DNA of 64,000 nt from Nitrosospira lacus (GTDB lineage: Bacteria > Pseudomonadota > Gammaproteobacteria > Burkholderiales > Nitrosomonadaceae). Shown here piece by piece: positions 1-16,417 of this stretch (positions within the stretch are counted from its first letter, which is position 1; each line of letters begins with the position of its first letter). The DNA is taken from assembly GCF_000355765.4 (NCBI RefSeq), contig NZ_CP021106.3:1149137-1213136 (forward strand). The letters are read 5' to 3'. The position numbers and the translations under genes were made by a program. Under the pieces are notes generated by a model. That model made no database searches. It was not told the origin of the DNA and saw only the letters and a list, made by a program, of their open reading frames with translations.

Positions 1-2
1 AA

Positions 3-44
3 ATAAAACTCATCATAGACAGCTGGAATCCGGGCAATCAATGA
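3..44 (+). CDS. lolB: 3' end of probable lolB (outer-membrane lipoprotein insertion protein), truncated by window edge
   Basis: The first bases are open in one frame and read IKLIIDSWNPGNQ before a TGA at 42-44. A hydrophobic strand ending in a basic or aspartate residue and tryptophan is what the C-terminus of LolB looks like, and LolB commonly precedes ispE in beta- and gammaproteobacteria. Only 13 residues are visible, so the call rests on synteny plus this short tail. A second frame stays open to a TGA at 59-61 overlapping the ispE start but looks less protein-like. Confidence 0.5.
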   Translation: MKLIIDSWNPGNQ

Positions 45-60
45 AGCCAACTCTGAACTG

Positions 61-909
61 ATGACCAAGCTCGCTTGCCTCGCCCCAGCCAAACTCAATC
101 TGTTCCTGCATGTCGTCGGGCGTAGAGAAGATGGCTATCATTTATTGCAAACGGTTTTTCGCTTCGTGGATTTTTCGGACCGGTTAAATTTTACTTTGCG
201 CGAAGACGGGGCGATCAAACTTCATACGCCCACTGCTGGCGTGCCCGAAGATCAAGATCTTTGTGTACGTGCAGCAAAACTGCTGCAGCGGGAAAGCGGC
301 ACTTCCCTGGGTGTCGATATTCTGCTGGAAAAGCGCATCCCGATGGGTGGCGGGTTGGGGGGCGGCAGTTCCGATGCGGCGACGACACTGCTGGCACTCA
401 ACCGTTTATGGGAACTGGGCTGGAAAAGAAACCGGCTATTGGCACTTGGGCTCGAATTGGGCGCGGATGTACCCGTATTCATTTTCGGTGAAAATGCTTT
501 TGCGGAAGGGGTAGGCGAAAAGCTTTCATCCATCCTGCTGCCGCCTGCGTGGTATCTCATCCTGATGCCACCCGTGCACGTGTCCACCCCGCAGGTTTTT
601 GCCAGTAAAGAATTGACACGAAACACGATTCCAATCAAAATACCGCCCTTTTCCGTCGAGCATGGGCATAACGATCTGGAGCCGGTGGTATGCCGGACTT
701 ATCCAGAGGTGGCGCGTCATCTGCAGTGGCTCGGGCGGCTCGATAACACCCGGAAGGTGGCGATGACGGGCTCGGGTGCTTGTGTATTTGCCGAGTTCGC
801 CACGGAGCCGGCGGCACAAATCGCGCTCGCGCAGGTTCCAGGCGATATGACTGGTTTTATGGTGCAAGGATTGGATCGCCATCCCATGCATGATTTTGCA
901 GAGCAGTAA
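61..909 (+). CDS. ispE: 4-diphosphocytidyl-2-C-methyl-D-erythritol kinase
   Basis: This GHMP kinase phosphorylates the 2-hydroxyl of CDP-methylerythritol in the non-mevalonate isoprenoid pathway, in the cytosol. The 282 residues match the family length. Lys11 near the N-terminus fits the catalytic lysine (AKLNLFL), and the glycine-rich ATP loop PMGGGLGGGSSDAA lies at about residues 94-107. ELGADVPVF around residue 136 supplies the conserved aspartate, and a third GHMP motif, MTGSGACVF, lies near the C-terminus. The ATG at 61 gives the normal N-terminus. The tRNA-Gln gene starts 4 bp after the stop codon, so the two probably share a transcript. Confidence 0.95.
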   Translation: MTKLACLAPAKLNLFLHVVGRREDGYHLLQTVFRFVDFSDRLNFTLREDGAIKLHTPTAGVPEDQDLCVRAAKLLQRESGTSLGVDILLEKRIPMGGGLGGGSSDAATTLLALNRLWELGWKRNRLLALGLELGADVPVFIFGENAFAEGVGEKLSSILLPPAWYLILMPPVHVSTPQVFASKELTRNTIPIKIPPFSVEHGHNDLEPVVCRTYPEVARHLQWLGRLDNTRKVAMTGSGACVFAEFATEPAAQIALAQVPGDMTGFMVQGLDRHPMHDFAEQ

Positions 910-1089: not shown

Positions 1090-2040
1090 ATGGCCTACGA
1101 TAGCTTGATGGTTTTCACCGGCAATGCCAATCCGAAGCTGGCGCAGGATGTGGTGCGTCATCTCAACATCCACGTGGGACGCGCGACGGTGGGCCGTTTC
1201 AGCGATGGCGAGGTGATGGTGGAGATCCTCGAGAATGTCCGCGGCAAGGACGTATTTGTTTTGCAATCCACCTGTATGCCCACTAACGACACGTTGATGG
1301 AATTACTGGTACTGGTGGATGCGTTGAAGCGGGCATCAGCGGGACGTATTACCGCGGCAATGCCTTATTTCGGCTATGCCCGTCAGGACAGAAGGCCGCG
1401 TTCGGTGCGGGTGCCCATCACCGCCAAAGTGGTGGCGAACATGCTGACCACCGTCGGGATAGACCGGTTGCTGACCATGGATTTGCATTCGGACCAGATT
1501 CAGGGATTTTTCGATATTCCGGTGGATAATATCTACAGCATGCCGATCCTGCTGGGAGACGTATGGAAAAGCGATTATCAGAACCTGGTGGTGGTTTCGC
1601 CCGATGTGGGCGGCGTGGTGCGCGCGCGGCAGATGGCGAAGCGCCTGGAATGCGATCTGGCGATCATCGACAAGCGCCGTCCCAAATTCAACGTTGCCAA
1701 GGTGATGAACATCATTGGCGAGGTGGATGGACGCACCTGCGTCATCATGGATGACATGGTGGATACCGCCAATACTTTGTGTGAAGCGGCCCGCGCCTTA
1801 AAGGAAGAGGGTGCCGAAAGTGTACTGGCCTATTGCACTCACGCAGTATTGTCGGGCAAAGCGGTGGAGCGGATTGAGAATTCCTCGCTCGACAAGCTCG
1901 TCGTCACCGATACCATTCCGCTGCGTGAGGATGCCAAAGCCTGCGTTCGCATTCAACAGTTGAGCGTGGCGAGCCTGCTGGCGGAAACGATGTTAAGGAT
2001 CAGTAACGAGGATTCGGTAAGTTCATTGTTCATGGAGTAA
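1090..2040 (+). CDS. prs: Ribose-phosphate pyrophosphokinase (PRPP synthetase)
   Basis: Makes PRPP from ribose 5-phosphate and ATP, feeding purine, pyrimidine, NAD, histidine and tryptophan synthesis. The 316-residue protein is the class I length. It starts [18 protein letters not shown], has the [13 protein letters not shown] segment and, at about residue 220, the PRPP-binding loop [13 protein letters not shown]. The start is fixed by the conserved N-terminus; there is no good Shine-Dalgarno sequence just upstream (the bases before ATG are tcacttgcccc), so initiation may be modest or use another signal. It follows tRNA-Gln and precedes rplY, the classical order. Confidence 0.96.
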
Positions 2041-2097
2041 GCGTTTTTTAATCGGAGCCATCTGGTCGCGGATGCTCCCTATTCTGGAGAAAGCACG

Positions 2098-2784
2098 ATG
2101 CAAATTGAAATCAGCGCCAACAAGCGCACGTTACAGGGCAAAGGTGCGAGCCGCCGCCTGCGTGGTTCCGGCAAGGTGCCGGGCATTATTTATGGCGGAG
2201 AGAATCCGGCGCAAGCGATTGAGCTGGATCATAATGGTCTTTATCACAAGCTCAAACAGGAGGCTTTTCATGCTTCCATCCTGTCCATGGATCTGGATGG
2301 GGAAAAAGAGCAGGTGCTGTTGCGTGATATACAAATGCACCCGTTCAAATTGCAAGTGCTGCACATCGACTTCCAGCGTGTGGACAAGAACAAGAAAATA
2401 CACATGAAAGTGCCATTGCACTTCATCAACGCGGAGAACGCGCCCGGGGTGAAATTGTCGGGCGGTCTCGTCAGCCATGTGCTCACTGAACTGGATATTT
2501 CCTGCTTGCCGAAAGATCTGCCTGAATTTATCACGGTTGATCTGACCGATCTTGCCGCTGGCAATACCTTGCACTTGAGCGACCTCAAGCTGCCGGAAGG
2601 CGTGGAGATTCCCACGCTTGGCAGAGGCGAGAATTTGCCGGTGGCGACTATCGTCATTCCGCGTGCCGTGGCCGCCGAGGAAGCGGCTGCCCAAGTGGCT
2701 GCGGCGGATATCCCGACGACCGTACAGAAGAAAGAGGGTGCTGCAAAAGAGGGTGAGAAAAAAGACGCCGGGAAGAAGAAATAA
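2098..2784 (+). CDS. rplY: 50S ribosomal protein L25 / general stress protein Ctc
   Basis: 5S rRNA-binding ribosomal protein of the long (Ctc) form, 228 residues. The N-terminal L25 domain ([31 protein letters not shown]) is followed by the TL5/Ctc C-terminal beta domain ([26 protein letters not shown]). A low-complexity, lysine/glutamate-rich tail (about residues 208-228) follows, a common feature of betaproteobacterial Ctc proteins. GGAG sits 8 bp before the ATG. A rho-independent terminator follows the gene. Confidence 0.95.
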
Positions 2785-2804
2785 TCCCCGCGGTTTTTCA
2801 ATAT

Positions 2805-2844
2805 AGCCCGCTGGAGTATATAGCTTCCGGCGGGCTTTTCTTTT
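2805..2844 (+). terminator. Rho-independent terminator after rplY
   Basis: AGCCCGCTGGA (2805-2815) pairs with TCCGGCGGGCT (2826-2836) as an 11-bp stem with one G-T pair and a 10-nt loop, followed directly by TTTCTTTT. It separates rplY from pth, so pth may need its own promoter or rely on readthrough. Confidence 0.85.
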
Positions 2845-2872
2845 AGCATGTAAGACTATTCTGTTTCGTTCG

Positions 2873-3469
2873 ATGAAACTCATCGTCGGTCTCGGCAATC
2901 CGGGCAGGGAATATGCCGCCACGCGTCACAATGCCGGGGCCTGGTGGATATTCCGCCTGGCGGACGAGTTGCGCATGACGCTGAAAGCCGAAGCGAGATT
3001 TCATGGTTTGTGCGCGTGTACCGGTCAAGGCGATGCAGAGTTGTGGCTGCTCAATCCGCAGACCTACATGAATGCCAGCGGGAAAGCCGTTGCGGCATTA
3101 TGCCGTTATTACAAAATTCAGCCTGAGCAGGTTCTCGTGGTTCATGACGAACTGGATTTGCCGCCGGGCGTTTCCAGACTGAAACTGGGCGGCGGGCTGG
3201 GCGGGCATAATGGTTTGAAGGATATCGCCGCCCACCTTGCCACCAAGGATTTCTGGCGCCTGCGCATTGGCATTGGCCATCCCGGCGACAGAAATGCCGT
3301 GGTAAGTTATGTGCTGCAGCCGCCGCGCAAGGAAGAAGTGCCGCTGATAGACGAAGCGATCCATCGCAGCCTGGAGGTCTGGCCGCTTATCGCGGAAGGC
3401 AATTGCCAGGCGGCCATGCTGAAGCTGCATACAAAAGTAATCAAGGATGATCCTAAGTCCGGTGGTTGA
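2873..3469 (+). CDS. pth: Peptidyl-tRNA hydrolase
   Basis: Recycles peptidyl-tRNA released from stalled ribosomes by cleaving the ester bond. The 198-residue protein has the diagnostic N-terminus [10 protein letters not shown] with Asn9, and TRHNAGAW with the catalytic His19. [12 protein letters not shown] carries the substrate-binding asparagine and [11 protein letters not shown] the catalytic aspartate. No clear ribosome-binding site is seen before ATG 2873, but the start is conserved. It sits between rplY and ychF as in many betaproteobacteria. Confidence 0.95.
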
Positions 3470-5631: not shown

Positions 5632-8600
5632 TCATGCATACACCCCCGCGTTTCGCTCCGGGTAGCTCTCATACACATGCTCGAACACCGCCGAGCATTT
5701 CTGACTGTAAAGTTCAGGCGTGTAGGCACGCGGCAATCCAGCGTCGAGGGTGTCTTCGATGGTTAGCTTCAACTGTGATCGCGCCGCAGCCTTCTGCCGC
5801 CAATTCAGTACCAGCAGCGCCTTTAACCGCGCCAGCAATTCGCGGGCAGCCTTCTTTACCTCAGCCCGTTCCTCCGCCGACAACTCCGGCGCCGGCCGCG
5901 TGAGGATGTCAAAAATGACCAACTCCTCCTCGCTCATGTTCTCACGCACATGCCGTTCCTGTTCTTCGTTCATGCTGTTTGACAGCCTCATCAGTTCCTC
6001 GAACAGTTCTTCGATGCTGCGGCTGCCGGCGTTGTAGCTTTCGATCAGCGTCTCGAACTTCTCGGCGAAGTCGGCGCGGGTGCGGTTCAACTGGATCATC
6101 TTTCCCAGTTGGGCACGGATCGCCGCCTTGAGCACTTCGAGGTCGGTGTTCTTGTGCCTAGATTTCTCGAAGCGTTTGGCCAATGCCTCGAAGTTGATCT
6201 TCGACAGGTTGAGCGCTGGCGGTCCTGACTGGCGGATTTCGTGGCCGGTGATCGACTCGTCGAGCAGGCTGTTGATCTGCCCCATCACCTGGGAAATATC
6301 CGGCTGGTTCGGGTTCAGCTTGGCGCGAATGGTGTCAACGAGCGCGGAGAGGCAGGCGACTTTGCCCGCAAATTCCAGCGCTGAAGAATCGGGCTTCGCG
6401 GCCCGGTAGAGCGTGCTCACCAACCGCTCATGGGCAAAGAAGTCGCGACGCAACGGGTCCGGTGAGATCAGCGCGTTCATGCCGTCCTCGATGTGCGACA
6501 GACGCTCTATGCTGCCGGTCGCCGTAGCCTCGATCTCGGCCAGCATCACGCCGTGCGCGGTGCAGAAGGCCGTGGCATCCGCCACCGACTTGCGCAGTTC
6601 CTCCACCAGTTGCTGCTTGTCCTTGACCGGGCTTTTCCCGTCCTTTCCTGTCCCGTAGATCGCCAGCGCCTTTTCCAGTGAGGCGAAGACATTGGCGTAA
6701 TCGACGATCACGCCGCTGTGCTTGCCGGGGAAGACGCGGTTGGCGCGGGCGATGGTCTGCATCAGCGTATGGTTGCGCATTGGCTTGTCGAGATACACCG
6801 TCGAGCAACTCGGTGCGTCGAAGCCGGTCAGCCACATGGCGCAGACAAAGACTAGGCACAGCTTGTCATCCGTGTCCTTGAACTTCTCGTCCAGCCCCGG
6901 TTGCGATTCGTTCATGCGCTTACGGTGCGGCTCGATATCGAGACCCAAGTTCTGCATCTGCTGGATTTCGTTCTGCCCCGGCGAGACAATCACCGCCATG
7001 TCGGTACTGGTCAGCACTTCCAGGCGGGCCTTCAGCTCCGCCATACGCAGATCGCGCCGTGCCTGCTCAGGCGTCATGCTGGATCCGCCTGGAGGGGGCC
7101 GGTAATGCAATTCGCCCAGTTCCTTCTGTACCCGCTCGGTTTCCGCCGCCCAATGCACCTTCACCTTGTCATGCATGCGCAATGCCGTGGCCTTGTCGAT
7201 GGAAACCATCATCGCCTTGCCCAGGAAGCCACGCCCCAGGAAGTGCCGCACGATGTCCTGCGCCACCGTTTCCAGCCGGTCATCGCGGGTAATCAGGTGG
7301 TATTGCCGCCCCAGCACCTTCTCCAGCTTGGCTTCCTGCTCGGCGTCGAGTTCGGCATCCTCGATCAGACGGTAGATGTTTTCGTTCAGGTCGGGATTGA
7401 CGAGCTGCAACTCCGGCGTGCGGTTCTCGTAGAACAGCGGCACGGTGGCGCCGTCTTCGATGGACTGCTGGAAGTCGTAGATCGAGACATAGTCGCCGAA
7501 CACTTCCTTGGTGCGCTCTTCGCCTGCAATCAGCGGTGTGCCGGTAAAGGCGAGGAACATCGCCTTGGGCAGCGCGGCGCGCATGTTGAGCGCCAGGGTG
7601 TCGTACTGGCTGCGGTGTGCTTCGTCGGTCAGCACGATCACGTCGGAACGGTCACAAAGCAGCTCCGGCGTCTGGAACTTGTGTACCAGGGTAAAAACGT
7701 AGCGGTGATTGCCGCGCAGCAACTCCCGCAGGTGGGCGCCGCTGGCGGCATGGCATTCGTCGCCCTCGGCCTCCGACACCGCACCGGTGGTCTTGAAGGT
7801 CTTGGCGATCTGCTCGTCCAGTTCCACGCGGTCGGTGACGACCACAAACGTCCAGTTGCCGGCAAGCTTGCGCAGTACTTTTTGCGCGAAGAAGACCATA
7901 GAAAAACTCTTGCCGCTCCCCTGCGTCTGCCAGAACACGCCGCCGCGCCCGTGACCGAGCTTGCGCGCTTCGAGCATCGAGGCGATGGCATTATTGACGC
8001 CGAGGAACTGGTGGTTCTGGCCGAGAATCTTGACCAGCCCGGCCTTGTGCTCGGAAAACAGCGAGAAGTTCTCCACAAGATCGAGCAGGTGGGTGCGGTC
8101 GCAGGTGCCGCGCAGCATCACTTCCAGTGACACGCGGCGCACTTCGTCCTCGCGCTCGATGCGCTTCCACTCCACCCAACGGCCCCAGTCGGCGGTGAGC
8201 GAGCCGACGCGGCTGTCGGTGCCGTTGCTGGCGATTAGCAGGGCATTACTCCAGAACAGCGCCGGAACCTGCTGCTTGTAATGGGTCAGGTTTTCGTCGA
8301 AGGCGGCGCGTGCCGACACGCCGGGTTTCTTGAGTTCGATCACCACCCAAGGCAGGCCATTGACGAAGCCGACCAGATCGGGCCGGCAGGTATAGAGACT
8401 GCCGACAACGCTGAACTGGCTGACCAGCAGGAAGTTGTTATTCTCGGTGTGTTCCCAATCCACCACGCGCAGGCGTTCGGTCTTCTGGCCACCGTGCTCG
8501 CGGTCGGGCACTGATATCGTAATTCCTTCCTTCAGTAGCCGATAGACCTCGCGGTTGGCGGCCTCTGGGCTCATGGCCGAACGGTCGCGGGTCAGATCAT

Positions 8601-8826
8601 CGACGGCATTGCTGATCGCATCTAGCGGCAGCGCTGGGTTGAATTTGCAAAGAGCGGCGCGCAGCCGTTCCACCAGTATCACCTCGCCGTTGGTCTCGCG
8701 CCCCAGCGTGCCACCCGCACCAAAGGTTTCTTCCTGCGCCGACACCGTTTGCCAGCCGAGCGTGGCAAACAGGCTGATGGCGGGCTGCTCGACGAGTTGC
8801 TCTTCGCTGTAGGCGTGGGTGCTCAT
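5632..8826 (-). CDS. hsdR: Type I restriction enzyme R subunit (translocase/endonuclease)
   Basis: Motor and nuclease subunit of a type I R-M complex (R2M2S): translocates DNA using ATP and cuts at a distance when the site is unmethylated. The 1064-residue protein has a PD-(D/E)xK nuclease near residues 149-166 ([20 protein letters not shown]), Walker A TQGSGKS at about 301-307, and a DEAH box at 401-404 ([10 protein letters not shown]). It also has helicase motif III, LAFTGTP, and a C-terminal region of helical bundles. The gene starts 3 bp after the hsdS stop. All catalytic motifs are intact. Confidence 0.95.
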
Positions 8827-8829
8827 GGA

Positions 8830-10083
8830 TCAAGTGGCCTCGATCTCGATCTGGCCGGAAAGCAGGCGCAGCAGCAGTAGGTCGCGGGTGTGGCGGAGGT
8901 TTTCTATTCGTTCCAGAAGTGTTTCGATATGCCGATGCATCGGTGCAACATGCTTGACGAAGTCAGCCATCAAGTTCTTCGACGCAAGAGCAAAGGCGAA
9001 ATTGAGCACACCCTCTTTCGGAAGCCCCAATACCGTTGTGCCAATCGCATACCCCTTTGCGAAGCCGCGGAAGTCATCTTCGAGGAGCAAGTGATAAATG
9101 AACGACGCCGGCAAACCTTCGGGAAGTCGCACGGCAAACAGGTGGTGAGAAATAAGTATCGGACGATCATCTGCAAAACGTGGAATCAGTGCCGCGCTGG
9201 CCACAACGTTGCCGGCCTGTGTGAGATCGGTATTCGCCAAGATGATGTCGCCAGGCTTCACAGTATGCCGAGGCTTGAAGTCACCGGAATAGGGCTTCGT
9301 GGCGTCTCGACGGAATCCTCCTCCAGTGAGAATGTTCTTGAGATTGACCATAGGATTGCCATCCTTGGTCAAGCCGGCACCGTTATATGAAACCCCTTTG
9401 TCTATGCTGATTAAGTCACCTAGCTTCTTCACCTCCCACCCCTGTGGAATATCGCCGAGGGGGGAAGCGACGCGAGGGTGGTCTTCGTGGCCGGGGAAAC
9501 GGAAATGGACGAACCACTCGCGGTAGAGGGCGCGGGCCATCGACTCCAGAATCTTGATGCGCCGCTGGCTGTTCTCGATGAGTTCGTCATAGGCCGAGAG
9601 GATGCCGGCGATGCGTTGCTGGATGGGAAGCGGGGGAATATCAATTTCGACCTTTGCCAGCTTTTCTCCCGGCAAATGTTTGATGGTCGCGCCTGTAAAG
9701 TACTGATCGAAACCTTTCGAGTGGCCGATATGCAGGAAACTGTAGAAGAGGAAGCGGTAGTCCAGAAACTTCTTTGGCCTGATTCTGTGTAGAGCTTTCT
9801 GGATCATCATTCCAGGAATCTGAGCTTTCCATATCGCACAACGTCCAGGCTCACCACCCTCGCACATGACAATATCGCCGAACTTAAGCCCGTAGCGATC
9901 CATTTCTTTAGGCTCAAAGCGCATGGTTCGAAGGTTGTCCAGCGCAAATTCGCCCCAACGGACGTTTACGTTTGCAAGATAGGAAAGCGGTTCCCCACGA
10001 TTCTTGTTCTGGTCAAGCATCTTGCCCAGACAGAGATTTGTCACTGCTCCCAAGGGCATACGCTCCCACTTAACCGTTTTCAT
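8830..10083 (-). CDS. hsdS: Type I restriction-modification specificity subunit
   Basis: Recognises the two half-sites and anchors HsdM and HsdR. The ATG at 10083 overlaps the hsdM stop (ATGA) and gives 417 residues starting [16 protein letters not shown]; the longer open frame upstream is the hsdM coding region read in another frame. There are two target-recognition halves. The central conserved helix region ([31 protein letters not shown]) ends TRD1, and a C-terminal copy ends in [18 protein letters not shown]. The two halves look intact, so the predicted target is bipartite; the actual bases cannot be read from sequence. Confidence 0.93.
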
Positions 10084-11699
10084 TCGCTCAAAATCCTCGC
10101 TACATTCGCGGCGATGGTCTGCTCCAGTTCCCGCGCCTGGGCGTTGAGCGATTCCAGTTCTTCGTTCAGTGTTTCGAGCTGCTCCTTGAAGTCTTCGTCG
10201 CTGACGTCCTCGCCTGGCGCGACGCCGACGTAGCGGCCGGGGTTGAGCGACCAGCCCTGAGCTTCGATCTCGGCGAACGTCGCCGCCTTGCATAGGCCGG
10301 GCACGTCGGCATAGGCGGGCGTGTCACCAAAGACTTCCTTGAGCTTGGCCATCGTCTCGCCAGTGCCGACTCTTGTGTCGAGCGCCTCGCCGCGATAGAG
10401 GCGCACCAGGTTGGCGATGAACCCGATCTGCGTCGGCGTCCAGTCGCGGTGGGCGCGATCGACCTGCCGGTAAATGTGGCGGACGTCGATAAACAGCACG
10501 GTATCGGCACGCGGGGTCTTGGCCTTGCCCTTGTCGAAAAACCACAGGGTGCAGGGCAGGGTAACCGTGTAGAACATGTTGGGGCCAACGGCGACCATGA
10601 CATCCACCGCCCGCGCTTCGATCAGCTTCTGCCGCAGTTCCTGCTCGGAGGAACGGGCGTCGGAGGCCGAGTTGGCCATGACAAAGCCGGCGCGGCCTTG
10701 GCTGTTCAACGCCGAGTAGAAGAGCTGAATCCACAGGTAGTTGGCGTTGTCGGTGCGCGGCAGGCCGAAGGGAAAACGGCGACCGGCGCCGACCATGTCC
10801 TTGAGCCGCTCCTTGTCCACCGCATTGACGTTGAAGGGCGGATTGGCGAGCACGAAGTCGAACGATCCGGTGGCAGTGTGCGGGTCGTCGTAGTAGCTGT
10901 TGATGTTGCCGCCGTGTTTGATGTCGCCTTCCAGCCCATGCACGGCTAGGTTGAGACGGCACAGGCGGCCGGTTTCGTCGGTCTTTTCGACGCCGCAGAT
11001 GGCGAGTTCGGCGGCGGGGTTCTTCTGGTGCTCGGCGACGAAGCGCGCCGACTGCACGAACATGCCGCCGGAGCCGCAGGCGGGGTCGAGGATGCGGCCG
11101 TGGAAGGGTTCAATAATTTCGGCCAACAGCTTGACAATGCTGGAGGGCGTGTAGAACTCGCCGCCACCCTGGCCCTCGGTCATGGCGAAGGCGCCGAGGA
11201 AGTATTCGTAAATGCGGCCGAAGGCGTCGTAATCGAGCGTGGCCGGAATCTCGGATACCTTCTTTAGCAGTTCCTTGAGCAGAGTACTGGTGAAGAGGTT
11301 GTAAGTCTTGGGCAGCACGCCGGCGAGTTGCGGATTGTGCTTCTCGATCTCGCGCATCGCGGCATTGACCTTGGCGCCGATGTCGGCGACCTCGGCCAGC
11401 GTCAACAGGTAGTCGAAGCGCGCCTCTGGACTGAGATAGAGGATGCCTTCGGCGTGGTAGGCGGCGGGCTCATCGACCCGGCTGCCTCGGCGGGATGAGG
11501 CGCTGGCGCCTTCGAGCTTGCTGCGCTGGATGGCAAAGCGGACTTCGGCAAAGCGCAGGAAAATCAGGCCAAGGATAGGTCCGGAGTATTCCTGCGCCTT
11601 TAGGCCAGAATTGGCTCGGAACTGGTCGGCGGCATCCCACAGGCGCTTTTCGAGCGAGGTGGAAGCGGCGTTTTTTTCGGAAGGGGCTATCCAATGCAT
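10080..11699 (-). CDS. hsdM: Type I restriction-modification DNA methyltransferase subunit
   Basis: N6-adenine methyltransferase subunit of the type I system. The 539-residue protein has an N-terminal HsdM helical domain. SAM-binding motif I is [12 protein letters not shown] at about 204-215 and catalytic motif IV is NPPF at 286-289. A C-terminal coiled coil ([26 protein letters not shown]) is the part expected to contact HsdS. It starts 2 bp after the stop of the upstream DUF262 gene and overlaps hsdS by 4 bp, so the genes are tightly coupled. Confidence 0.95.
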
Positions 11700-11701
11700 G
11701 G

Positions 11702-13654
11702 TTAATCTGGCTCAATGAGTTCGAGGCCACTGTCGTGGGCCATTGATGTGGGGATGTCATCGCCTTCTTCGGCGGCTTCAGCGGTTGTCGGCGCCGCATG
11801 ACCGGTGATACGCGAGACTAGTTCCATGAGCAGCTTCTGGCGCGTTTTCATGAAACCGTCGAAGTCGTTGGCGTATAGCTCCGGCACCGGAATGCAGTGG
11901 GTTTGCAGATAGCTGGCGAGCGCGGCCTTGTCAATGGGTGGCTCGATGATCTGGCCGTTGGGGCCGGCTCTGCCCTCTTCCAGTTTCTTTAGATAGCTGG
12001 AGGGCGCGACACCGCCGATGATGCGGTTGGTCCGGTAGCCGAGCGGGGTCTTGTTAACCACGGAATCGAAGAGCGAGGCCGGCAGTTTCTGGTCTTCGCA
12101 CCATTTCTTCGGGAAGATGTGGTGAATGTCGACGCCTTCGTCGAAGAACACGGTCTGGTCGAAGGCTTGGCCGCTGCGGAAGTCGATGGCTCCTTGCCGC
12201 AATAGCAGTGCCTGCAAGCCTTTGTAGGCGGCAGAGAGGCGCGAGCGCATGGTTAGCAGCCGGTCGGTGCGCAGCACGCCATCGGTGACGGTGGAGGGTT
12301 CCGAGCCGCCGTCGAGCCAAGCCGGCACTTCGAGGATGTCCTTGGCGAAGCGGCTTTCAACCGCCGAACCGTACAGCTCGCCAAATACGCCGCACCAGTA
12401 CCAGCGGGCAATTTTGTCGTTGTTGGTGGCGTAGTCGGCCTTGTCACCGATTTCGGCAAAAATGGCGGCGAGCGGAACGAGTTGGGTCTGGTAGGGCAGA
12501 TCGACCACACGGTGAATCTGCTGCTGGCGCAGGAATTTGGCGGCGCGCTCGAAGCCGGCCCGTACCGCGTTGCAATGTTTCTTGTAGGCGGGCAGCGGTA
12601 GATCGAGCAGCGATTGGCGGGTGGCCCGGACGGCGGGCCAGTCGCTTTCCTTTTTCGATGGATCAGCGATCGCTGTGAGGCGCAGCTCCTTGGTGTGTAG
12701 CAGGGCAATGGCTTGCAGAAAGTCGGTCGAGGCCACGTTGGCAAGTACGCCTTGAGCTTGGCCGGCGGCGCGCCCGAAGTTGGCGAGACGTTTCTGGATG
12801 CCGAGCTTGAGATCGGGGCTGTCGGACCTCTCGTCGCCCAGCCAATCGTCGCGCAGCTTGTGACCTTGGGCGGCATACATGGCGGTGAGCAACTCGAAGG
12901 CATCCAGCGCCTTGCCGCCGGTGTTGACTTTCTCGAAGACGAGGCAGACGGCTTCGTGGGAGGTGTCGGCACCGAGGGCGATGACTGGCACCTGGTATTC
13001 GGCGAAGTTCTTGAGCACGTCATTCTTGAACTGCTTGAAGACGTCGCGCATCTCGGGTTTGCCCTTGGTGATCCAGTAGTCGCCGAACTCCTCCTGCCAG
13101 CTGTCCCAGTTGAACGCCTGGTTGAGCGGGTACATCAGGTTCTCGTATTCGAGCTGTGGCGAGGACAGGTTGAGAACAATGTCCTTGTCGAAATTCTCCT
13201 TGATCTTGCGGTCTTCCGGCGCGGCAAAGATTGCTGAGTCGCGGTCGGCCTCGGAATTGAGCGCCTTGCGAATGTCGATGTAGAACCACCGCTTGACCAG
13301 CCGTTTCTTGGCGGTAATGGTGGAAACGACCTGGCGGCGCATGCAGCTCTGGTACAGCGAGGTCATTCGCTGTTGACCATCGAGCAGCAGTTGTTCGGGT
13401 TTCCTCTGCGCCTCAACCGGAACGCCCTCGATCGGGCGGTAGGCGAAGACCACACCCGTGTCGATCTTCGACTTGAGCGACATAAGCGCTCCCATTGGAA
13501 AACCCCGCGAGACTGAGGCGATGAGACTCATGATTCGCTCTTCCTCCCAAACCCAGCTCCGCTGGAAATCCGGCAGCTGCAGCTTGCCGTCCTCGCAGGT
13601 CTTGAGCAGCGTCTGGAGCAACACTGGATTGGTGTCGAAGGTGGTCTTGGCCAT
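11702..13654 (-). CDS. GmrSD-like DUF262/DUF1524 protein, first gene of the hsd operon
   Basis: About 650 residues when started at the ATG at 13654, which has GGGAG some 10 bp upstream; an open frame further upstream has no support. The N-terminal DUF262 (ParB-like NTPase/nuclease fold) is marked by [10 protein letters not shown] near residue 28 and [12 protein letters not shown] near 90-100. The C-terminal DUF1524 His-Me nuclease motif [11 protein letters not shown] lies near 508-518, followed by the conserved asparagine and arginine in [14 protein letters not shown]. This domain pair is that of GmrSD type IV restriction enzymes, which attack modified phage DNA, and of related single-chain proteins such as BrxU. 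Here it is 2 bp from hsdM, forming one operon with a type I system. Confidence 0.88.
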
Positions 13655-14136
13655 CAGTGAGGCACTCCCTTTGTATTCTTGTTGGGCAACTTGGCTATAT
13701 TGGGGCGTTCGGAGCTGCCAACAAACAAACATCCGAGGAAAGCCGCTATTGTCCGACAATCTCCAGCCAAGAACAAACGAGTTATGCAAGTTCGATGATG
13801 GGGCGCGCAAACGGCTTTTCGGAGCGAATGGGTTGATGCAACTGTCGATCCCGATAGCGAAGCGCTAACGGAGTGCAGCAACACCCTTGCGCCATGCAGT
13901 GAAGGCGCGGACGCGCTGAATAGCAGGGCGAGCGGCGAAGGGACGCAAGACATAACACCTTGTGCAGCGCGCCATTGCCGCCATACGCACATAGTTGCGC
14001 GAGAACGTGCCGAGCCTGTTCCGGCACATGCGCAATTGGACCAACTTCCTAATACGGGGAAACTGGTCAGGAAACCGTTAACCGCCGGTTATCCGATTTT
14101 AAATATGAGTAGGGAGAGTAGGTGTGTGGTATATAT
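13655..14136. other. Divergent intergenic region of the island
   Basis: No gene is supported between the divergent DUF262 and HTH-GTPase genes. A long imperfect hairpin is present at 13995-14035: TTGCGC/GCGCAA on the outside and GTGCCG/CGGCAC inside, with a 9-nt loop. The operator and promoter of the HTH-GTPase gene follow from 14137. No convincing minus-strand promoter for the hsd operon was found. Confidence 0.5.
13995..14035. repeat. Two-tier inverted repeat in the island divergent region
   Basis: TTGCGC (13995-14000) pairs with GCGCAA (14030-14035). Inside it, GTGCCG (14007-14012) pairs with CGGCAC (14022-14027). No T run follows, so an operator or RNA structure is more likely than a terminator. 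Confidence 0.5.
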
Positions 14137-14176
14137 CATATATGCAATTTATTTATTGTATTTTATTGCATATATG
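14137..14176. promoter_or_regulatory. Perfect 12-bp inverted repeat, probable operator of the HTH-GTPase gene
   Basis: CATATATGCAAT (14137-14148) is the exact reverse complement of ATTGCATATATG (14165-14176), with a 16-bp A/T-rich spacer. Each arm itself contains the 8-bp palindrome CATATATG, and the two are 32 bp apart, about three helical turns. The right arm covers the -35 box of the downstream promoter. Such a layout is typical of autorepression by an XRE-type HTH protein, which the downstream gene encodes. Confidence 0.7.
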
Positions 14177-14194
14177 ACGATTATTCCATATACT
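14166..14194 (+). promoter_or_regulatory. Sigma70-type promoter of the HTH-GTPase gene
   Basis: -35 TTGCAT (14166-14171), a 17-bp spacer, and -10 TATACT (14189-14194). The expected start is near 14201, giving a leader of about 36 nt that includes the ribosome-binding site. The -35 lies within the right arm of the inverted repeat at 14165-14176. Confidence 0.65.
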
Positions 14195-14236
14195 CCTTGA
14201 ACGGCTACATTGAGCCGAGGAGACAGGAGTGAAGAG

Positions 14237-16417
14237 ATGGAATTGATTAAATTAGTGCCGGTCACTGTTGGGCGGGACATCGCGCGGTTTCGTGCTGAAT
14301 TCGGCGCCACCCAGAGCCAGCTAGCTGCGAAATCGGGCGTCGACCAAAGCCGGATTTCACGAATCGAGAATGGGGAAGCAGGTACTGATGATGAGCTAGA
14401 ACGCATTCTCGTCGCGCTAAAATCCTTGGGATCGAAGGATGCTGATGACTACAGAGCCTTCCTTGTCAAAGACTGGCAGCATGTCGAGCGACCCGATTTC
14501 TCTAATCCCCAGCGAAACATCCTTGAACTTGCCGAGGAGGGGCTTCGGCAGATTGCAGAGTTCCTTGCCGAGGAAAGGCCCTGGCCGCTCAAACGGCAGC
14601 TCGAGCGGCAGCGGGCTGGCATCGAGGCCTCGGCTGCATACCTTGGTAAGGCAAGTCACCAGATCGCGTTTATTGGGGAAGTAGGTGTCGGCAAATCCAC
14701 CGCAATCAGTTTCCTTTACGGACTGCTGGACCCAGTATCATCGGCGAGCGATCTCCGTGAGCGCGTTGTCCTTGAAACTGGTGGTGGCCATACCACGCTG
14801 TGCGAAGTTAATATCCGGCGCGGCCCTGGATTTGGGATCGTGGTCCAGGCTCAGTCAGACGAGGAAATGCGAAAACTCATCGGTGATTTCTGCGCGGCCA
14901 CTTGGCTGCGCTGCACGGTCAGCGATGGACAGAAGAACGACAGCGTTAATGTAAGCGAGGAGGTCCAGCGCGCTCTGCGCAATATATCGGGCCTTACGGT
15001 CAAACGTGAACGTGATATGCAAGGAAAGACTACTTCACGCGATCAGGCACTCGAACTCGCCAGCCACTGTGCCACAGAGGAAGAGTTTCGAGCGCGAGTC
15101 ATCGAGTCCATGAATCTCGAGCAGCGGACGCGTCGAGAAATATGGATTGAGGATGCTGGTGGAAAGACTGCCATGCAGCAGCTACGCAAGCTGTTTCGCG
15201 ATATCAACAATGGCCGTCTCTCCGATGTACCACTCCCCGCATCGATCGACCTACTTATTCCTGGGTTCGGATTGGAATTGCCCGGAATGACGATTTCGGT
15301 TGTGGATACTAAGGGGCTTGACGAGGTTGCGGTACGCGCCGACCTCGACGCCCGGCTGAAGGACTCGCGGACCCATGTGGTCCTGTGCTCAACCTTTAAT
15401 CAGGCCCCAAGTACCTCTGTTCAGCTCCTGCTCAACCATCTTCGCAATGCACATGGGATTCATGTGGGCGGCGGAAAGGTGTCGGTGCTAGCCCTCCCAC
15501 GCGATAATGAGGCGATGGCAGTGAAGGACGACACTGGCGAGCCTCCGATTGATGATAAGGACGGCTATGATTTGAAGCGCGATCAGATCACTCGGACGCT
15601 AGTCGGCGCTGACGGGGCGTTGAGCGAAGTTCCAATCCTTTTTTTCAACGCGAAGAAGGACGACGCAGCCCGGGTTCGGGAACAGTTACTCGAACAGATC
15701 GTCTGGTTGCGCAAATCTTACGAAGAGCGGCTGCTCGACGAATGTGCGGCAGCCGACGAGGTGGTCCGTAACCATGAAACTCAAGCCTTCTCGGCAGCGG
15801 TGCAGGAGGTCGCCGCTCGCCTTGCCCACTTTCTAGATGCCCATACATCCTTACCGCCTCGTATCCGACAACCCTCCCAGGAGCTCATCGATGCCATGAG
15901 CAAAATCCGCTATGCTTCGACGATCTGGGCGATGACCCGTCGTAATGGTGAGTATTACAATTTCAGCGTTAGCCACCAGGTCGGTGCCGGGGGCGCCAGG
16001 GACGCGCTCCTCCGCAGCAAGACCTGGTTCGACAAACTGCAGGGCGTCCTCGACACTTTGAAGCAGGATTCCGACCTCATGCTGGCACAAAAGACGATCC
16101 AGCAAGTCGAGGCCAGCGCAGACGGTTGGCGGCGGACCTTTGCTGAGTCCGCGCGCACGGCGGCGGTTGAGATTTATCGTGGGCCGCTCGAGGCGGACGA
16201 GGAACTCTGGTCCAAATGCGCCAACCAGTGGGGTGGAGGACCTGGCTTCAAAGATCGCGTCGCACGCATCATCCGCGACTGGTTTGACGCGCGGATCGAA
16301 CTGAACCAGAAGCTCGAAGGCGTTATGGCGGCCCTATGGGAGGAAGCCGTTGTTCGACCAGTTGGGCGGTTATCGGATGAAAGCGCAGGTGATCTACCCA
16401 AAAATAGTGGTGAGTGA
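14237..16417 (+). CDS. XRE-type HTH fused to a dynamin-like GTPase, candidate defence protein
   Basis: I do not know a named family for this 726-residue protein. The ATG at 14237 is preceded by AGGAG; the open frame extends 9 codons further. Residues about 10-65 form a Cro/XRE helix-turn-helix (TQSQLAAKSGVDQSRISRIENGE). A P-loop GEVGVGKST lies at about 147-154, a G2-like threonine segment GGGHTTLCEV follows, and G3 is DTKG at about 357-360, with helical regions around and after it. This is the layout of large dynamin-like GTPases, with no membrane segment. A clear G4 motif is not visible. It faces away from the restriction operon, has its own autoregulatory-looking operator, and lies in a defence-type island, so an anti-phage role is plausible but unproven. 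Confidence 0.85.
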   Translation: MELIKLVPVTVGRDIARFRAEFGATQSQLAAKSGVDQSRISRIENGEAGTDDELERILVALKSLGSKDADDYRAFLVKDWQHVERPDFSNPQRNILELAEEGLRQIAEFLAEERPWPLKRQLERQRAGIEASAAYLGKASHQIAFIGEVGVGKSTAISFLYGLLDPVSSASDLRERVVLETGGGHTTLCEVNIRRGPGFGIVVQAQSDEEMRKLIGDFCAATWLRCTVSDGQKNDSVNVSEEVQRALRNISGLTVKRERDMQGKTTSRDQALELASHCATEEEFRARVIESMNLEQRTRREIWIEDAGGKTAMQQLRKLFRDINNGRLSDVPLPASIDLLIPGFGLELPGMTISVVDTKGLDEVAVRADLDARLKDSRTHVVLCSTFNQAPSTSVQLLLNHLRNAHGIHVGGGKVSVLALPRDNEAMAVKDDTGEPPIDDKDGYDLKRDQITRTLVGADGALSEVPILFFNAKKDDAARVREQLLEQIVWLRKSYEERLLDECAAADEVVRNHETQAFSAAVQEVAARLAHFLDAHTSLPPRIRQPSQELIDAMSKIRYASTIWAMTRRNGEYYNFSVSHQVGAGGARDALLRSKTWFDKLQGVLDTLKQDSDLMLAQKTIQQVEASADGWRRTFAESARTAAVEIYRGPLEADEELWSKCANQWGGGPGFKDRVARIIRDWFDARIELNQKLEGVMAALWEEAVVRPVGRLSDESAGDLPKNSGE

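Follow-up and report, generated by a model that had tools for sequence, protein, structure and literature searches.

How defence islands are silenced and how they are switched on is a recognised gap. To our knowledge, the defence-island regulators described so far either have a WYL domain or belong to the small HTH proteins. The C proteins of restriction-modification (R-M) systems are about 80 aa long, have an XRE fold and act at palindromic sites in a two-site promoter arrangement, with their gene directly before the restriction genes. XRE regulators and C proteins bind as dimers and bring about repression or dose control. BrxR is described (PMC9122601) as an autoregulating repressor whose gene stands beside many unrelated defence systems and has inverted-repeat sites upstream; a defence system lies downstream in 164 of the 347 BrxR homologues given there (about 48%). 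RptR, according to PMC12255303, is a small protein that binds TAGCTA direct repeats and uses a conserved site to keep a type I R-M island repressed at its promoter.

BrxR and RptR are the closest in role to the protein reported here, a fusion of an XRE head to a dynamin-like NTPase. The fusion family resembles BrxR in its predicted autoregulation, inverted-repeat sites and varied defence neighbours. However, BrxR senses via a WYL domain, whereas the fusion protein has a dynamin-fold NTPase body and gave no Pfam match to WYL at E≤1. RptR shares with our model for the fusion protein a repressing role at a type I R-M island, but is without an NTPase. C proteins are alike in their XRE head, paired palindromic sites and adjacency to R-M genes; they lack the NTPase body, and the partners of the fusion family include non-R-M systems. 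The absence of WYL and the large size place the fusion family outside both BrxR and C proteins, and its kind would be that of an autoregulated defence-operon regulator. No paper on an XRE/dynamin-like NTPase fusion was found in the literature covered (subscription papers and bioRxiv lay outside the coverage).

The locus lies in a 64,000-nucleotide stretch of Nitrosospira lacus DNA, which was analysed whole and is called the window. Its fusion gene encodes 726 aa, a length that presumes the chosen ATG start, with the following parts:

14237..16417, plus strand: XRE/dynamin-like NTPase fusion protein (Pfam HTH_3; AlphaFold2 model and PDB fold matches; full-length relatives)
14267..14419, plus strand: HTH domain (XRE, Cro/CI-type), residues about 11-61 (Pfam, model helices)
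14651..15664, plus strand: dynamin-fold NTPase domain, residues about 139-476 (invariant residues, fold search)
15665..16381, plus strand: helical stalk-like region, residues 477-715 (secondary structure of the AlphaFold2 model)

Fusion of an XRE domain to a dynamin-like body had been put forward as an uncommon pairing, and we found it in one protein belonging to a rare family of near-full-length members. Pfam recognises the HTH as HTH_3 (residues 15-54, E 4.3e-8; 33.5 bits, above the curated cut-off of 23) and as HTH_31 (residues 12-61; 32.4 bits against a cut-off of 27), and the PADLOC Control_protein model matches the protein at E 0.0085. In the AlphaFold2 model (24-row alignment, mean pLDDT 85.1, pTM 0.68) the helices of this domain span residues 8-22, 26-33, 37-44 and 51-63, and the recognition-helix sequence is DQSRISRIE. 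The NTPase domain carries a P-loop (GEVGVGKST, 147-155), a G2-like GGHTT (183-187) and a G3-like DTKG (357-360), for which the family alignment gives the patterns GxxGxGK[ST]T, GGxTTxCEV and DTKG/DTRG. Residues G147, G152, K153, T155, T187, D357, T358 and G360 are invariant in 38 of 38 family sequences. Beyond residue 470, the top 19-residue Kyte-Doolittle mean of the window protein is 0.80, and a 19-residue scan of five family members detected no membrane-type hydrophobic stretch.

The putative dynamin assignment of the window protein rests on the AlphaFold2 model and its fold matches. The best PDB matches of the model in Foldseek are the bacterial dynamin-like proteins 5oxf, 5owv, 7zw6 and 2j69 (E 6e-9 to 1.4e-7). 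Such proteins head the 38 PDB chains found at E≤0.001, which also include mitofusins and dynamin, and the LeoA structure is matched at E 0.004. Global TM-scores of the dynamin-like matches are low (0.25-0.30), indicating that the domains agree with those of dynamin-like proteins and that their arrangement differs. Pfam dynamin models gave no match to the window protein at E≤1, and a relative, L046, weakly matches Pfam Dynamin_N (E 0.0054); the match of the window protein to the PADLOC LeoBC model (E 7e-4) spans some 85 residues near the P-loop. By model comparison, the NTPase fold, long helical stalk, P-loop and G2-/G3-like motifs are common to the fusion protein and to BDLP, DLP1/2, SynDLP, IniA and LeoA. 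The fusion protein differs from these in sequence (about 9-14% identity), in its added HTH head, in having no membrane-type segment and in the guanine motif NKxD, which was not seen at the expected place. A conserved ALPRxxEA stands where NKxD would follow; in the window protein, the strand 415-420 is followed by PRDNEA. A dynamin-like body, as originally described, is borne out by the model, which gives it a dynamin fold with a stalk, but the label 'GTPase' is unproven because NKxD was not seen.

A tblastn search of plasmid records gave 19 matches, of which 18 were covered to at least 80% with a match start within residues 3-26, and three extra queries from remote members returned the same plasmid set plus one fragment. 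A genome scan queried with five close members gave 23 loci; it selected for DQSR, one of its two search peptides, and the operator site played no part in the selection. IMG/VR supplied three loci, L018 and L019 being full length, and L020 was dropped as its match spans residues 7-47 only. Among 50,697 phage records there was no match to the window protein. In genome tallies, limited to 2-3 scored candidates for each genome and thus liable to overlook members, matches occurred in 2 of 369 genomes of the window's own class (its own included, with no HTH seen in the other), in 4 of 398 genomes of the phylum (three of them without the HTH) and in 2 of 385 genomes of the class of L021 (L021 itself included). 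The window protein shares 82% identity with a protein of a Hyphomicrobiales bin, and in the family tree it falls among alphaproteobacterial rows, which makes horizontal transfer of its gene likely.

Rows that named the same places were dropped (L035, identical to L011; L044, to the window; L048, to L021; and L050, to L025). L049, a new distant member on a short locus, was left out of the counts, as were L003 and L045-L047, in which no XRE head was seen. The counts comprise 38 operator loci against 39 neighbour loci, since L040, a broken copy, was counted only among the neighbours. The L040 gene (7743-11941, Verrucomicrobiae bin) has its N-terminal piece and the rest about 1.85 kb apart, separated by a 507-aa ORF, and gajAB is still downstream. 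L003, from the class to which the window belongs, encodes a remote NTPase relative (1456-3447); a gene of HipA type lies nearby at 1-759 (minus strand), comparable to L012, L014 and L017. The HTH-less relatives L045 (139-3153), L046 (325-3285, minus strand) and L047 (1372-4407) are about 1000 aa long and carry the family's dynamin-like NTPase and stalk joined to an AAA_21 (OLD/AbiEii-type) ATPase at the C terminus. This fusion type is a candidate single-protein defence system, and its composition suggests that the NTPase/stalk body may serve as a sensing or assembly module elsewhere in defence.

The following elements are predicted upstream of the fusion gene:

14136..14148, no strand assigned: predicted operator copy 1 (CATATATGC), left arm (exact 13-bp repeat, family-conserved core)
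14165..14177, no strand assigned: predicted operator copy 2 (TTGCATATATG), right arm, over the predicted -35 (conserved in L022, L023 and L024)
14166..14194, plus strand: predicted promoter TTGCAT-17-TATACT (read by eye; same-place counterparts in relatives)

The original prediction described a perfect 12-bp inverted repeat with its right arm over the promoter -35. The repeat (14137-14148/14165-14176) is exact and even reaches 13 bp per arm, the spacer then being 16 nt. The window has this pattern a single time and none of 100 shuffles had it; on this ground and that of conservation in the family, a chance origin was rejected. From comparison with relatives, its arms are more aptly seen as a conserved palindrome, with consensus ATGCTGCATATATGCAGCAT, present twice; each arm is centred on the self-complementary CATATATG. 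The element TTGCAT (14166-14171) lies inside the right arm and TATACT (14189-14194) follows 17 nt on, both read by eye; a consensus promoter scanner did not report this pair. Relatives have TTGCAT-17-TACATA/T at the same place, and the placement of the -35 within the right arm, as predicted, recurs in L022-L024. In the window's own genome (3.26 Mb, one contig), TGCATATATG occurs six times, two of these being the window operator pair. A regulon elsewhere in this genome was rejected: two of the four other places fall within long reading frames, and a reading by eye of 2 kb around each of the four, with no family search, revealed no defence gene. A 112-aa ORF (13654-13992) upstream of the DUF262 gene, considered as a leader gene, is probably spurious, as judged from reading only.

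Across the family, CATATATG is found within 150 nt upstream of the start in 24 of 27 DQSR members and in 0 of 11 non-DQSR members (n = 38; Fisher P 3e-7, a value that ignores relatedness, the DQSR label needing only two changes on the tree). The association between recognition helix and site reflects shared descent in part. These counts are based on corrected starts of L028, L031 and L042. The three DQSR members in which CATATATG is missing from the 150 nt upstream are L006, L021 and L028, and near matches are present in L028 and L006. With uncorrected starts, GCATATATG or its reverse CATATATGC is present in 21 of 38 target upstream regions (150 nt) vs 2 of 411 control regions, and the two ORFs behind these control hits each lie on an intergenic region in common with a target. 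Shuffling of the targets gave a mean of 0.03 and a maximum of 1 in 200 rounds. The consensus ATGCTGCATATATGCAGCAT comes from an alignment of 23 non-duplicate sites anchored on CATATATG, which fixes the eight core columns; L026 was omitted from the conservation profile as a near copy. In the flanks, columns -6 to -1 and +8 to +13 show conservation and dyad symmetry, and most columns beyond do not. The remote DQSR members L042 and L043, on long separate branches, retain the site. Non-DQSR helices go with other palindromes, for example ATATTGCGAAATTTCGCGATAT in L017, TGAATATATTCA in L008 and likewise another in L012.

The position of the site relative to the promoter varies. In 16 of 24 members it coincides with the -10, at 15-18 nt from an upstream TTGACN; it stands on the TTGCAT -35 in the window, L022, L023 and L024, with TATACT or TACATA/T 17 nt later, indicating that the site is kept while the promoter position shifts. 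Two copies are 32 bp apart in the window, 31 in L004 and L005 and 34 in L033 (from the sequences), and 21-22 in L022-L024 and L041, where one copy is degenerate. All but one of these spacings come close to an integral number of helical turns. Could the conserved sequence be only a strong promoter or UP-type element, and no operator of the fusion protein? CATATA or TATATG is indeed usable as a -10 in the 16 members with an upstream TTGACN, but the palindrome is longer than a -10 (its arms measure 17 bp in L029 and, with a mismatch, up to 20 bp in L038), and in the window clade it falls on the -35. Moreover, the window, L004 and L005 each have two copies at a distance of 31-32 nt, and 409 of 411 control upstream regions have none. 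We regard a promoter element as highly improbable. Self-regulation, suggested originally as repression by the window protein of its own gene, is well supported at the level of sequence by a conserved site that lies on the gene's own promoter and tracks the recognition helix. A role of the site as a phage-borne decoy was discarded, as two viral-collection scans returned one locus each (L059 and L060), with no adjacent family member in ORF listings.

By gene content read by eye, window positions 5632-16417 form a defence island of a betaproteobacterial chromosome, flanked by ychF and DUF502-aspS. Divergent from the fusion gene are:

11702..13654, minus strand: DUF262/GmrSD_N protein, divergent partner (Pfam GmrSD_N, E 1.8e-27)
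10080..11699, minus strand: hsdM, type I methyltransferase subunit (Pfam N6_Mtase, HsdM_N)
8830..10083, minus strand: hsdS, type I specificity subunit (Pfam Methylase_S; start chosen from the reading frame)
5632..8826, minus strand: hsdR, type I restriction subunit (Pfam HSDR_N, SWI2_SNF2; NCBIfam hsdR, E 3e-138)

HsdM, HsdS and HsdR are present together, which identifies the operon as type I R-M, and its back-to-back position and GmrSD-like first gene are as originally described. The DUF262 protein has GmrSD_N in common with GmrSD/BrxU type IV enzymes, but no Pfam match to GmrSD_C at E≤1. By eye, a 10-residue stretch of this protein resembles an HNH-type site. No promoter was located for the divergent hsd operon in the window. 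Given this and the divergent orientation, putative control of the operon by the fusion protein is surmised by analogy with relatives whose partners lie directly downstream.

A recognised defence gene or operon is adjacent to the family gene in 21 of 39 loci (a raw count), mostly co-directional and close. Partner kinds are hsdMSR, Gabija, Septu, BREX, Hachiman, DUF262, HipA and PD-Lambda-5-like. Neighbours were identified by HMM for selected genes, and for others via record annotation or BLAST clusters with tested genes. They are arranged as follows:

hsdMSR directly downstream, same direction: L022, L023, L025, L026
gajA(B) directly downstream, same direction: L028, L031, L036, L040
DUF262 directly downstream, same direction: L004, L005, L033
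ptuAB directly downstream, same direction: L008
DUF262-hsdMSR divergent: window
BREX (BrxB, PglX) divergent or upstream: L038 (identity of the operon's nearest gene unconfirmed)
HamA divergent or upstream: L015
PD-Lambda-5_A-like gene and methyltransferase, divergent or upstream: L011
gajAB divergent or upstream: L016; upstream also in L026
HipA divergent or upstream: L012, L014, L017
HipA convergent: L021

Co-occurrence of fusion homologues with hsd or gmrSD genes, proposed as a check of the prediction, was found and extends to Gabija, Septu, BREX, Hachiman and HipA, but 18 of 39 loci have no recognised adjacent defence gene. Among these 18 are weaker, more distant cases (HNH in L006; DpdB-like in L007 and L037; a cytosine methylase in L019; a TOTE-conflict primase-helicase in L042) and truncated contigs (L018, L024, L029, L039). 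L009, L010, L030, L034, L041 and L043 are clear negatives by the genes examined; L009 sits among metabolic genes and L010 on an IncU plasmid. Integrases adjoin or lie near L021, L029, L034 and L036. A layout like that of C proteins, with adjacent R-M genes and own palindromic sites, is seen in the window, L022, L023, L025 and L026. Near the family gene in L005 (1205-5272) and L021 (3850-7845, minus strand) are related proteins of 1330-1355 aa with an Eco57I-type methylase domain (Pfam match shown for L021). Small genes of unknown kind stand directly downstream of the family gene in L032 (12084-13488), L024 (4606-5442) and L010 (3890-4228); they had no Pfam match where tested and are possible undescribed defence partners.

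The loci with no recognised defence neighbour bear on whether the fusion protein is itself an anti-phage effector of a soluble dynamin-like type, its HTH setting its own dose and its neighbours being ordinary defence-island company. Such loci (18 of 39) would suit an effector, as would the HTH-less relatives, in which NTPase and stalk are joined to an AAA_21 ATPase in the manner of a defence protein that acts alone; the Bacillus dynamin DynA delays phage lysis, according to PMC8844932. Nevertheless, we consider an effector unlikely. Partners are often directly downstream in the same direction, e.g. at 20-29 nt in L004, L005 and L040, a closeness that suits co-regulation; many unrelated partner kinds recur; and the five members scanned had no membrane-type segment.

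HipA neighbours raise the question of whether the fusion protein is a large HipB, an antitoxin-like partner with its HTH on the operator and its body restraining a neighbouring toxin or nuclease. HipB antitoxins have a related HTH: that of the window protein best matches the HipB-type antitoxin model TIGR03070 (E 3.8e-7, below the model's cut-off). HipA is adjacent in four loci (L012, L014, L017, L021) and near the HTH-less L003. However, HipB is small, most partners of the family are not HipA, and they are too varied for a single binding surface. Furthermore, a regulator about 80% identical accompanies unrelated enzymes, and L017 has, in addition, a small HTH gene that is paired with a HipA of its own. 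We hold an antitoxin role to be quite improbable.

Regulators and partners differ in how closely they are related between loci. The regulators of the window and L022 are 82% identical, whereas their HsdM proteins are 28% identical over 298 residues and their HsdR proteins 25% over 444 residues, indicating that partners swap. For the window DUF262 protein, the best four of 58 plasmid records directly follow XRE/NTPase relatives in Sphingomonadaceae (56-57% identity), and other plasmid matches, e.g. Shinella at 55%, had no family member in the tblastn search of plasmid records. As the window DUF262 gene is divergent and its plasmid relatives are downstream, the DUF262 link recurs with both gene orders. 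We favour, as rather probable, a reading of the fusion protein as an autoregulated controller of exchangeable defence operons.

For such a controller we propose the following: 1) the XRE head would bind the palindrome ATGCTGCATATATGCAGCAT on its own promoter and keep that promoter quiet; 2) co-directional defence genes would be held down too, as they share the regulator's promoter, and divergent ones would share the intergenic control region; 3) in the window, two sites 32 bp apart, about three helical turns, could seat two dimers on one face of the DNA; 4) the dynamin-like NTPase and stalk, with no membrane-type segment, would be the part for sensing and oligomerisation; and 5) self-assembly would respond to an infection signal or to a switch in nucleotide state, so that the operator becomes free and expression rises. 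The sequence itself shows the fusion, the conserved site with its place on the promoter and its link to the recognition helix, and the defence neighbours; binding, repression, trigger and NTP switch are our inference, as are the invasion sensing and GTP-driven release of the original prediction. More tentatively, and with somewhat less than even confidence, we suggest that a dynamin-superfamily NTPase may have turned transcription factor, repressing exchangeable defence operons and releasing them when its nucleotide or assembly state reports infection.

One regulator lineage occurs with Gabija, type I R-M, Septu, BREX and DUF262 enzymes, which suggests that the regulatory part may travel as a module, and the conserved 20-bp site is a marker for finding further members. 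A dynamin-type NTPase on a DNA-binding head would bring a mechanochemical, self-assembling sensor to defence regulation. If true, defence islands would have a third type of master switch in addition to the WYL regulators and the small C-type proteins, and one passed between systems as a module.
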